Assembly (NCBI GenBank): GCA_000467715.1
Contig: AJFK01000681.1
Span: forward strand, 1 to 45,994
DNA from: Hysterium pulicare CBS 123377
Taxonomy: Eukaryota > Ascomycota > Dothideomycetes > Hysteriales > Hysteriaceae
Direction: 5' to 3'
DNA length: 45,994 nucleotides
The notes below the pieces were generated by a model. It was not told the origin of the DNA. It made no database searches and saw nothing but the letters and a program-made list of their open reading frames with translations. Positions within the stretch are counted from its first letter, which is position 1; the number at the start of each line of letters is the position of its first letter. Position numbers and translations under genes: made by a program. This document shows positions 29,774 through 33,879 of the stretch, one piece after another.

Positions 29774-31546
29774 TCAAGCTCTTGTTTCGGTAAAGTAGGG
29801 TGCTAATGACATATCCAATGGGAGTTCGTGCGATATGCCGAGCCGGTTACTCAGTTTGTGAAACGAAGGCCCAACTCGGTCAATTTTCTTAGCCATTTTT
29901 TTCTGGGCGCCTGTCGTGATCAGTTTCTCCGCCTTTGGCTCACCGTAGATCTGCGGGACCGTCGATATCGCACTGCTTGGAAACGAGGAGGGACCGAAGG
30001 TACTCGATGGCCAAGATCCTTTTCCTCTGCTGAAAATCTTTTTAGGGTGTTCTTGCTTCGCAGGTAAGTTCGCCTTGAAGTTCTTGACATCGGAGGAAGT
30101 AGGCATATCGATATGGATTATAGCTGACGAAGGCTCGACGGTAGAGGAAGAAGGGATGGCCGGGACTGCAGTAGTCGATGAAGGTGCGACGTTTGTTTCT
30201 GGTGTTGAATAAACTGGCCCAGGCGGAGGATCAGGCCCAGGCGGTGCTGGCAAGGTTCGTGGGTGATCATCAGTCACTGTGGGCTCGCTCTTGACAAAAT
30301 TATCCGATCGAATCACTCCCAGAAACTGGCAACCCCTCGCAGTAGGCATCATGGCTGCCCACAGCCAGACGGGCAATGACCATATTGCTGTACATGAGTT
30401 GCTCTCGAAGAGTCCCACCAGTTGGGATTCTCTCCACGCCGAGAAATTGTATTTGGATACGTCTTTGGGTGATTGGCTGAGGAAAACTCGCCACTGCCTC
30501 ATAACAACGGATGCTTCGCCTTCAAAAGTAACTTTGATAAGGATTCTGGCATCTGAGCAGTCATTCATCTCTTTAAATGTGTTGAGTCGTTGGTCTTTTT
30601 CTGACTGACGCCGCAGTGCCCGCATGGATATGGATGGATGCTGACTTCCCGCGTAATCAAAATAAAAGGGATCAACCTCCAAATCATAATCTTTCCGTTT
30701 ATCGGAGTCTGTAAGAATTGTCCATATTTGACGGATGTCAAGGCCTGGGTCGTCTAGTTCCTGGAGAAGCGCCTCTGTGAATGCCTTTGGTTGAGTAGAC
30801 GCAGTGGCGGCTCCGCCGGCAGCGCCTAAGAGTTCGCAGGCACCTTTCCATTCTATCCGTCTATTCACCATGTCCCCTGCATGACAACAGTCGAACAAGA
30901 ACAATTTGTCACACTCTGACTCCATGAACAATGTTCGCTGTGCGGTTGACCATTCGATCCTAGGTGACCCCTGCTCGTTCTCTGCCATCCAGTGGCACAT
31001 GTTGTTGTCAGAAACAGAAGCATGGCCACCATAGTACATGATAAATAGACTATGCGGGTCTTTTTTGATTTCCCGAATGTATGGAATCAGATGGAAAGTG
31101 AAGTCTTGCAAATCATGATTCCGAGGTATGGCATATTCATGTGCTTCAAAACCATATTTACCATCATTTTTCAGCAGTTTGCAAAGCTTCTTAGCATTTT
31201 TCACCATGTGCTCAAGGTTCCTCGCCTTATCCCAATATAAGATAATCGCAATTACTCGAGAATATTGCTTTCTTTTGGCGAGTATTTGCCCAGCGGCATC
31301 CTCTAACTCTTGTCTAAACCCTTTCAGCGTCTTCAGGTGTCTCTCTGATGTCTCTTCCGTCTTGGCTATGTTTGGTGACTCATGCGTAATGTGTTGCGAT
31401 GCATGCGAATCCGGTCCCATGGAGCGATTCGTTTGTAGACCGTTCGTAGGTTCTGGCGTCGCGCCTTGCGACTGGGCTCCATGTTCACCATTTTCGACTG
31501 TGCTTATTTGTCCGCCTTCCGGAGGTTTTACGCTATTGACTGCCAT
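29774..31546 (-). CDS. Caspase-like cysteine protease (C14/CHAT-type)
   Basis: Single frame of 590 residues; 31546 is the first ATG (MAVNSVKPPEGG). Residues 1-70 are polar and disordered. The caspase-like domain covers about residues 90-410. The first strand is YSRVIAIILYWDKARNLEHM. The catalytic His is in LFIMYYGGHAS (H175). The catalytic Cys is in LFLFDCCHAGD (C221, second of the two Cys, by analogy with DSCHSG of metacaspases). An Ala/Gly-rich loop follows (LLGAAGGAATAST). The domain ends around LVGLFESNSCTAIWSLPVWLW. Residues 430-560 are a Pro/Ser/Thr-rich linker, with a short basic stretch and conserved-looking tail after it. There is no NB-ARC, TPR or prodomain. It is divergent from the gasdermin-like gene at 32680, 1.13 kb apart. 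By analogy with known fungal pairs, the neighbour is its likely substrate. It could instead be an unrelated orthocaspase; I favour the pairing. Confidence 0.8.
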   Translation of the reverse strand: MAVNSVKPPEGGQISTVENGEHGAQSQGATPEPTNGLQTNRSMGPDSHASQHITHESPNIAKTEETSERHLKTLKGFRQELEDAAGQILAKRKQYSRVIAIILYWDKARNLEHMVKNAKKLCKLLKNDGKYGFEAHEYAIPRNHDLQDFTFHLIPYIREIKKDPHSLFIMYYGGHASVSDNNMCHWMAENEQGSPRIEWSTAQRTLFMESECDKLFLFDCCHAGDMVNRRIEWKGACELLGAAGGAATASTQPKAFTEALLQELDDPGLDIRQIWTILTDSDKRKDYDLEVDPFYFDYAGSQHPSISMRALRRQSEKDQRLNTFKEMNDCSDARILIKVTFEGEASVVMRQWRVFLSQSPKDVSKYNFSAWRESQLVGLFESNSCTAIWSLPVWLWAAMMPTARGCQFLGVIRSDNFVKSEPTVTDDHPRTLPAPPGPDPPPGPVYSTPETNVAPSSTTAVPAIPSSSTVEPSSAIIHIDMPTSSDVKNFKANLPAKQEHPKKIFSRGKGSWPSSTFGPSSFPSSAISTVPQIYGEPKAEKLITTGAQKKMAKKIDRVGPSFHKLSNRLGISHELPLDMSLAPYFTETRA

Positions 31547-32679
31547 GATCACTCGATGAAACGGAGCTGGAGGATACTTTGTCGGATACCAGTCGGTTCG
31601 GCTTCGGACTGTACAGCAATGCGAAAGTGCCGCACTTTGCTTCGGCTGCAATCATTCGTGAGGCTGGATTCTGAGTAATTACGAAGCCAAACTGCCAGGC
31701 TCTCCCGACAGAAGCACGACCGTGAACAAGATCGCCTCTTGGGGTGGGGTTCACGTTTCCAGGGCTCGAGAAAGCTGAGTACGGAGCCGCACGAGATGAA
31801 ACGCCTAGCGATGCGAGGCATAAATGTACTGGTTTTTCAGGGTGTTGTCCATCTTATCCATTTGCATATAAGTCTCGGGGTTGACTGGGCGCAATACCAT
31901 CTGGCAAAGTGATCCTTCTGGCTATTATTGGTTCTCATGACCGCCACCGGCTTGTGCTTGCATTGCAGTAGATGCGCCACAAGTCTCCCACGGCATTTGC
32001 GCTCTCATATCAGCTGCTCAAATCCCCGCACTCGTGAAGGTGCCTCCTAGCCTACAGGCTTCAATATAAGTCGCGATCATCATATCCATGAGAGCAATAC
32101 GATTAGACCCAATTCGGTCGGAGTGAAAATGTTTTTGAGTAACCCAGAAACTACATTTTGGCAGGAGTAAATAACTTTCTGGAGAGCTGAAAGTTTAGAA
32201 TAGTCTCTTGGCAAAAAATAACCGATCTTTGGCCGATCAACATCTTCCTAGCTAGACTTGCCCGTCTTTCGTACCTCCATATGCCATCAAGATTCCATAA
32301 CCGTATAGCCTGGAAAAAGCCTATTCAGTATACCGCTTTCCAAACATGCCCAAGGATAGCAGATTGCTTTATCACCTTTACCAAGGTCAAACCGGCTTTG
32401 TAGGCTGGTAGTAAAGAGTAAACTGATCACCGAAAAGACGAACGACACACCCATGTGCATTAAGATGACAAAGTAGAGGTAAAGTGTAGCCTAAACTTGA
32501 ACCCAAATGTGCATTGGACATGCACGAGAAACTAGAAGCGTATTCCGGTCAGCAGCCCTAAGGCTGGCCTATCAGGGGTCTGTGGCTTTTTAAAGCTGAA
32601 GCAGTCCTTGCCTTGACACCTTTTCATCAGCATTCGACTTATCTATCCATTCTCCTAAGCATTGTTATTGTTATCTGAA
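31547..32679. promoter_or_regulatory. Divergent spacer between protease and gasdermin-like genes
   Basis: This 1.13 kb gap separates the two start codons. A TTTTTAAAG box at about 32590 lies roughly 90 bp before the gasdermin-like ATG and fits its core promoter. No repeat, RNA gene or other coding exon is evident. The frames that continue upstream of the protease ATG have no further in-frame ATG. Confidence 0.45.
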
Positions 32680-33879
32680 ATGACGAAACGTCTAGATCTA
32701 CTCTACGTCAAAGCTCTTCGGAACCAGCAGGAAGGCCACGCTGTCTACAGTAAACTTTTGGCCAACGAGGTCAAACCAGGCACTTGTGGATATGTTGATG
32801 GAAATGGAGACTGGAACACCGTCCTTCAGCTTACCGACGCGGCTCAAATCCAAAGCCTCGAACTTCCACCTCTAGATGGTGTTCAGGGAGCCGATGTGGG
32901 TGGGACGACATACTGGACCCCAAAGACATCAAGCAGCATGAGCGAGAGGCACATCAAACTTGATGGGAGCGCCGTGTAAGTGTATGGTTCATTTAGGTTC
33001 GAGGTTATCAACTCCAGTGCTAGGGGTGTGCATAGATCATTCGGACTCGGTGAAGTTCATCAAAGCCAGTTGCCCTCATCAAGCCTAGAAGGTGTAGTGC
33101 TACAAAAAGCTCATCCACACTGACATTTCCAGAAAAGTCCTCCAGGCTCTCCAGTAGGGGCGAACGCCGGCTATGAATACACCAACCAGGCCCAAACCGG
33201 AGCCGTGCTCCTTGCCGGTGGGCCTGTCACTACCTCACGCTTGACAAACGTCATAGCAATGAGGCGCTGGATGAACGAGAATATTGAAAACGTTGTCCAG
33301 CATGCAGATTTCGAGACCATTCGGAAAAAGGGTCTTTGGGTTATTACCAAAACATACTCGGCGCCACAACGTGGCATTACTGTTATGACGTCCAAAGGGA
33401 AAAGGGTTGCGTTCCATACAGGGGCCAATGTCACTAACGTTGCTGATGTGCAGGCCTCAGCAGACTGGTGGAATTCTGATCAGTCAAGTAGTGGTTGGAT
33501 CAAGGATAAGGTGAGCCAGGCCTTTAAAGCGATGAATTGACACTCATTTTGTCCCTAGATTAAAGATGGCGAAAAGGGGGTTATCCTGTTCTTTACTGGT
33601 ATATGGTGGAAGCCAGGAGGCATGTTTTCCAAAAGCTACAAGCTGGAGGAGGAGAGGAAGAAGCAAAGAGTTTTGGACGGCAACGACGAAGGCGTTCCGG
33701 CAACATTCGTGGAGACTCAAAACCCAAAAACAGAGGAAGAAAAGGAGGAACCCTTCTTGAAACTATTTCCTGGGAGTGTTGGGGGTAAGCAGAGTGGCGA
33801 GGGGACTGATTTTGATGGACTGCCCGCCCACAACGATTATTATGATATCTACGATGATGATAGTGATGAAGATGATTGA
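32680..33879 (+). CDS. Gasdermin-like pore-forming protein (candidate)
   Basis: Proposed exons are 32680-32975, 33036-33093, 33133-33510 and 33559-33879, giving 350 residues. Introns are 60, 39 and 48 bp; the 39 bp one is short, so exon 2 is the least certain. Features that suggest the fungal gasdermin (HET-Q1/RCD-1) family: an amphipathic N-terminal helix (LYVKALRNQQEG), then PGTCGYVDGNGDW, a beta-hairpin region, the GAVLLAGGPVT block, an aromatic WVITKTYSAPQRGITVM strand, SADWW, and GVILFFTGIWWKPG near the end of the core. After this core (about 270 residues) comes a roughly 75-residue charged tail with Lys/Arg and Glu clusters and a very acidic end (YDIYDDDSDEDD). In characterised fungal pairs the C-terminal segment keeps the pore domain inactive until a partner protease cuts it. 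The call rests on my reading of family patterns, not on a search. Confidence 0.6.

Follow-up and report, generated by a model that had tools for sequence, protein, structure and literature searches.

A C14 protease gene next to a rapidly evolving gene for a possible gasdermin-like protein: a candidate cell-death module in Hysterium pulicare

Do two neighbouring, divergently transcribed genes of the ascomycete Hysterium pulicare CBS 123377 constitute a cell-death module, in which a protease sets free a pore-forming protein? The genes lie on contig AJFK01000681.1 (C462 in our numbering). The window, i.e., the whole stretch of DNA that was analysed, is this one contig in its entirety, 45,994 bases out of a 37.2-Mb genome that is assembled in 596 contigs. 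One gene of the pair, here called the protease gene, codes for a caspase-type cysteine protease of family C14. The other one, here called gene 2, is fast-evolving and may encode a gasdermin-like pore protein. What the locus offers is two open frames, a C14 family member with invariant histidine and cysteine, a divergent adjacency and, in gene 2, a putative core followed by an acidic tail. We give about an even chance to the reading that the two genes form a fungal cell-death module comparable to HET-Q1/HET-Q2.

The protease gene is an intron-free open reading frame (ORF) with its ATG at 31546 and its stop codon at 29774-29776. It carries the motifs YYGGHA and DCCHAG, and the coordinates given in the original prediction (29774-31546, reverse strand) proved to be exact for its 590 amino acids. 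In Pfam, PF00656 (Peptidase_C14) is the sole family at E <= 1, with an E value of 3.2e-6 and 27.4 bits at a cut-off of 21.4. The caspase model of PADLOC is matched with E 3.5e-4; the match to the EACC1-type caspase model of NCBIfam reaches 31.9 bits, short of the 140 that this model requires. Among the 8,000 candidates that were scored out of 5.8 billion proteins, 15 relatives were found at E <= 0.001. The top one among these candidates (P0001) shows 48% identity over 98% of the query with an E value of 3.2e-146; named sources are Podospora didyma, Penicillium frequentans, Cadophora and Rhexocercosporidium, which, like the genes with introns, fit a filamentous ascomycete as the host. An alignment, A1, comprises 13 rows, i.e., the window protease and 12 of the 15 relatives. 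P0013-P0015 were omitted as carriers of PF11001, which was confirmed in both omitted relatives that were scanned, P0013 and P0014; in these more distant relatives it appears, as a YDR124W-like helical domain, besides C14.

All 13 rows of A1 contain PF00656 at E <= 0.1, six of them Raptor_N in addition. Invariant throughout are Y171-Y172-G173-G174-H175 and D219-C220-C221, and the His/Cys dyad must therefore be strongly constrained and the enzyme is probably active, as judged from these sequences. The protease gene is real and its C14 identity secure. By analogy with the D-x-C motif of metacaspases, Cys221 is taken to be the likely nucleophile. A further conserved region is found at about residues 331-413, where S384, P392, W394 and W396 are invariant in A1; it has no match in Pfam, from which only PF00656 turned up in the protease. 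The N- and C-terminal stretches are variable. Searching the sequences of the PDB with the single protease sequence yielded three unrelated rows at chance level (E 0.16-0.74), the A1 profile no row at E <= 0.1; thus, no solved caspase is close to the protease in sequence.

The class of the protease deserves some attention. It had been predicted to be of caspase type, subject to a profile check against C14 and CHAT, and to stand alone without a NOD-like receptor (NLR). The profile and the 15 relatives with their invariant dyad bear out the former claim. A CHAT profile, which we take to be among the Pfam models, was not matched at E <= 1, and NCBIfam and PADLOC pointed to caspase models. Neither were NB-ARC, NACHT, ANK, TPR or WD40 found in the 590 residues at E <= 1 in Pfam; at that sensitivity, therefore, "stand-alone without an NLR" is right. 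With the fungal type I metacaspases the protease presumably shares, apart from its membership in C14, the motifs YYGGH and D-x-C. It differs from them in showing no zinc-finger match in Pfam and in having the conserved C-terminal region SDARILIKV...PVWLWA instead. The position of D219, two residues ahead of C221, suggests a metacaspase-like preference for Arg/Lys. Metacaspase-like enzymes in general prefer Arg/Lys, and the function of the fungal ones as death proteases is debated (PMC13304501). The host genome contains other and stronger C14 matches, which a six-frame family search detected on contigs C551 and C301. A second caspase-like gene (L002; G000:C54:24008-27274) has the motif ILDCCFAS and is 36% identical over query residues 194-281.

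Gene 2 is less clear-cut. It had been described as a divergent gene of four exons. The open frames with the predicted sequence strings and a clean 48-nt intron were indeed found; the number of four exons is not settled and was dropped, because several splice models compete. The open stretches 32680-32975, 33133-33510 and 33559-33879 share the same reading frame. When codon usage was scored against a table derived from 12 further ORFs in the window, the proposed frame ranked top of six in all three large exons (0.154, 0.103 and 0.280). The margins are modest, e.g., 0.154 versus 0.135 for the next frame in exon 1. Intergenic controls have a mean of -0.04, a standard deviation of 0.07 and a maximum of 0.12, and exon 3 taken alone falls inside this range. 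The same holds for the protease gene (0.094), which is certain. The stretch 32977-33132 scores -0.072 in the frame of gene 2 and 0.206 in one reverse frame.

The ambiguity resides in the zone 32976-33157, which has a branch-like CTGAC at 33120 and candidate acceptors from 33132 to 33157. Splice models had to keep the frame and were ranked by hand-set weights, for which reason the ranking is not to be trusted. In the 12 best-ranked models, exon 1 is kept and a mini-exon of 4-32 nt sits between two introns; their products of 325-337 amino acids differ only at about residues 99-112. The central exon is common to all models listed and would start at 33133 with the earliest acceptor. A single-intron model (intron 32976-33137) gives 329 amino acids without any internal stop. 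Taken as sequence, gene 2 is probably a real multi-exon gene.

The product of the single-intron model consists of a core of 255 residues (27 K+R, 25 D+E) and a tail of 74 residues that is acidic (8 K+R, 21 D+E). This putative division, which was made by eye in one splice model, would agree with the layout of fungal gasdermins, a core of about 240-260 amino acids with a short inhibitory extension at the C-terminus, and by analogy the tail is a candidate for a cleavage linker plus an inhibitory tail. From here we infer a gasdermin fold, a protease-substrate relation, a cleavage site and a biological trigger. The gene 2 product would be a divergent fungal gasdermin, its pore-forming core of about 255 residues being silenced by the acidic tail of about 74. 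The divergent C14 neighbour would be the activator, the trigger being carried by its conserved C-terminal region and its variable ends; if any part is regulatory, the conserved block would be the first to consider. The active protease would cut the gene 2 product in the basic linker behind the core (RKKQRVLDG), after a basic residue if it is metacaspase-like, between D and G of LDG if it is a true Asp-specific caspase. The tail would depart, and oligomers of the core would then perforate the membrane and kill the cell, be it in heterokaryon incompatibility or in defence. The more specific proposal that a stand-alone, metacaspase-like C14 enzyme (PF00656, neither CHAT nor S8) that has a conserved C-terminal region of its own activates a gasdermin by cutting after basic linker residues is tentative, and we consider it somewhat more apt to fail than to hold.

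How does this compare with systems already known? According to reviews, some 1,900 gasdermins are found in 400 fungal genomes; S8 proteases account for about 60-63% and the caspase-related CHAT proteases, the second commonest type of partner, for 17-19%, and dozens of the partners are NLR-like with CHAT (PMC10197012, PMC10989679, PMC12881547). A TPR-CHAT protease of Podospora anserina activates the gasdermin of this fungus (same reviews), and the incompatibility locus hetB of Aspergillus fumigatus comprises a CHAT protease with a possible link to gasdermin (PMC11138114). About 80% of the gasdermin genes in fungi have a protease gene in their cluster (PMC10197012), in line with the original prediction that they commonly sit beside one. 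A clustered protease gene is one within 10 kb, and the divergent C14 gene, 1,133 bp away from gene 2, lies inside this distance. The prediction had also regarded a caspase-type partner as special. This claim is weakened by the rank of CHAT, and novelty from a caspase-type partner alone was dropped, as CHAT partners are already in print.

With HET-Q1/HET-Q2 of P. anserina the pair shares an adjacent protease gene and a protein of about 280-330 amino acids with a core and a short C-terminal extension, both putative in gene 2. HET-Q2, however, is a subtilisin-type S8 protease, whereas the one here is C14; and cleavage-controlled killing has been demonstrated for HET-Q1, while our pair is known from sequence. 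HET-Q1 has 278 amino acids, of which about 40 C-terminal ones are removed, and RCD-1 proteins have 244-257 (PMC10989679, PMC12881547). The 255 residues of the gene 2 core are close to the latter; RCD-1 of Neurospora crassa, in contrast, works by allelic co-occurrence instead of cleavage, and gene 2 has the extra acidic tail. The fungal gasdermin-CHAT clusters, including the TPR-CHAT one of P. anserina, resemble the pair in that a caspase-superfamily cysteine protease adjoins a (here candidate) gasdermin. They differ in the protease, which here is PF00656 instead of CHAT and has no TPR, ANK, WD40 or NLR at E <= 1. The arrangement as such must be considered known, because the reviews report it, CHAT partners included. 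The pair is, by analogy, a probable case of it, and since the design is published, the gain would be a variant and not a principle. What would be unusual is a PF00656 partner that stands alone, with neither repeats nor an NLR. Titles and abstracts, a scope outside which the primary cluster survey lies, disclosed no PF00656 protease or metacaspase paired with a fungal gasdermin.

The module is the favoured reading because the protease belongs to C14 with an invariant dyad and gene 2 carries a coding signal in its three large exons, further because its size and putative layout fit HET-Q1 and RCD-1 and some 80% of fungal gasdermins are clustered with proteases. Other results weigh against it. Gene 2 has no match over cut-off in Pfam, NCBIfam or PADLOC; below cut-off, one piece of exon 1 yielded Pfam rows for NigD_N-like (E 0.082) and for Antimicrobial17 (E 0.24). 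The gasdermin model PF04598 had 0 matches in the host genome, a scan without a positive control, as a signal was seen in only 1 of 14 control genomes and there below cut-off. Of four queries against the PDB sequences, the one with the full product had no row at E <= 10, and those with the pieces had rows at chance level, e.g., haemagglutinin, ribosomal protein L21 and RQC2. In the 5.8 billion proteins, none of 2,438 candidates reached E <= 0.001 with the full length and none of 11 reached E <= 10 with the central exon; these searches exclude close relatives only, because their candidate step requires shared exact 5-residue words. A paralogue was not detected in the host genome, where the best candidates for the exon 3+4 piece and exon 1 were scored; dozens of fungal species have more than 10 gasdermin genes each (PMC10197012). 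The motif W-[VIM]-[VIM]-T-K-T matched twice in this genome, in gene 2 itself and in an unrelated short frame on C405. A single-sequence structure model, which included intron-derived residues, is unusable at a predicted local distance difference test (pLDDT) of 32.8, and fold searches from it had no meaningful match. In favour of a gasdermin, the order of a helix, short paired strands, a long helix, a hairpin ([K/R]G-x-[W/Y]-V-[I/V]-T, a basic turn ahead of a W-V-I-T strand and a second strand) and a hydrophobic last strand resembles a gasdermin N domain; this resemblance is a lead and not a computed result. The strand pair 219-225/231-237 is present in the unusable model, too.

The original prediction of a protease-triggered pore module thus stands in part: the caspase-type, NLR-less protease is there, while gasdermin identity and pairing found no supporting match. 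The searches neither support nor refute the label gasdermin for gene 2. They have little power with a family as divergent as this one, and no fungal gasdermin served as positive control. The family evolves by birth and death and has a scattered phylogeny (PMC10197012). As to pairing in orthologues, none of 99 pattern matches in a scan of viral contigs was confirmed as a relative.

That relatives of the protease are readily found and those of gene 2 are not could mean that the genes are independent. They may then be neighbours by chance, a metacaspase-like C14 protease next to a lineage-specific orphan that is no gasdermin. This explanation is quite conceivable, although short of an even chance: the searches gave no relatives, significant domain or usable fold for gene 2, and we judge start codons 1,133 bp apart to be ordinarily spaced. 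Yet size, putative core and short acidic tail of gene 2 match known fungal gasdermins, fungi usually have a protease gene beside a gasdermin gene, and searches of the kind used here easily miss families that evolve fast.

Gene 2 could also encode a gasdermin that is not activated by the adjoining C14 protease, which might act elsewhere, or the pairing could be allelic as in RCD-1. There is precedent, since RCD-1 fires when two allelic variants meet (PMC12881547), and by the 80% figure some 20% of the gasdermins in fungi have no protease gene in a cluster with them. Against this speak the 74 residues past the core, which fit proteolytic control, and the presence of the divergent protease neighbour; we regard this alternative as unlikely. 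Finally, one of the genes might be a pseudogene or a mis-called ORF. Gene 2 might arouse such suspicion by its lack of relatives, its ambiguous first intron, its modest codon scores and an exon 3 that, taken alone, is inside the intergenic range. But the protease is an open frame of 590 codons with conserved catalytic residues, and gene 2 has the top coding score of six frames in three exons, with in-frame, splice-like junctions; moreover, even the protease gene, about which there is no doubt, does not score higher. An artefact is highly improbable.

The coordinates of the pair are compiled in Table 1. A GC (guanine plus cytosine) island around it was not seen in 2-kb steps across the window (GC 0.45-0.54). 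At some distance on either side lie two ORFs on the reverse strand, 28357-28836 and 37229-37777, without any Pfam family over its cut-off. A weak mutual similarity (pairwise E 1e-7; 187 columns with 21% identity) gives them the look of remnants of an old family dispersed around the locus. Downstream of gene 2 follows a multi-exon gene on the forward strand (34454-36000, end approximate), of which three pieces were scanned without a Pfam match. By eye, the translated pieces look helical, with hydrophobic stretches near the end, and recall fungal CorA-like membrane proteins. The ORF 40183-41580 on the forward strand encodes an Ankyrin-repeat protein with Ank_4 over cut-off; it looks like an arginine methyltransferase of the RMT2 type, i.e., a housekeeping enzyme.

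Table 1. Positions of the protease gene, gene 2 and their parts in the window
Feature	Position	Strand	Basis
Caspase-type (C14) cysteine protease gene, single exon, 590 amino acids	29774..31546	-	ORF, PF00656 and relatives
Conserved C-terminal region, about residues 331-413, SDARILIKV...SCTAIWSLPVWLWAAM...	30308..30556	-	Alignment A1
Caspase (Peptidase_C14) domain, residues 103-232	30851..31240	-	Pfam hmmscan; same stretch in six-frame family search
Cys220-Cys221 of DCCHAG	30884..30889	-	D219, C220 and C221 invariant in 13/13 rows
His175 of YYGGHA, putatively catalytic from its family	31022..31024	-	Invariant in 13/13 rows
Intergenic stretch of 1,133 bp separating the divergent start codons	31547..32679	.	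ORF coordinates
Gene 2 exon 1, donor GTAAGT at 32976	32680..32975	+	ORF; coding frame top of six
Gene 2 zone with one long intron or two introns flanking a mini-exon of 4-32 nt	32976..33157	+	Enumeration of splice models
Gene 2 central exon, with GAVLLAGGPV and WVITKTY	33158..33510	+	ORF; coding frame top of six (33133-33507)
Gene 2 last intron, 48 nt, GTGAGC...TTGAC...TAG, clean	33511..33558	+	Sequence; splice scoring
Gene 2 last exon, with FFTGIWWKPG; stop 33877-33879	33559..33879	+	ORF; coding frame top of six
Gene 2 acidic C-terminal tail, 74 residues, starting RKKQRVLDG	33655..33876	+	Composition; start chosen by eye

If the favoured reading of the pair as a protease-triggered cell-death module is true, the order of the genes would tie a PF00656-type protease to a pore-forming executioner, and the locus would be a compact system in which caspase-to-gasdermin signalling could be studied outside the animal kingdom. 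On the more specific and less likely proposal of a metacaspase-like C14 activator, it would also be a direct fungal parallel to the caspase-gasdermin axis of animals, and a fungal C14 protease family would gain a defined role in cell death.

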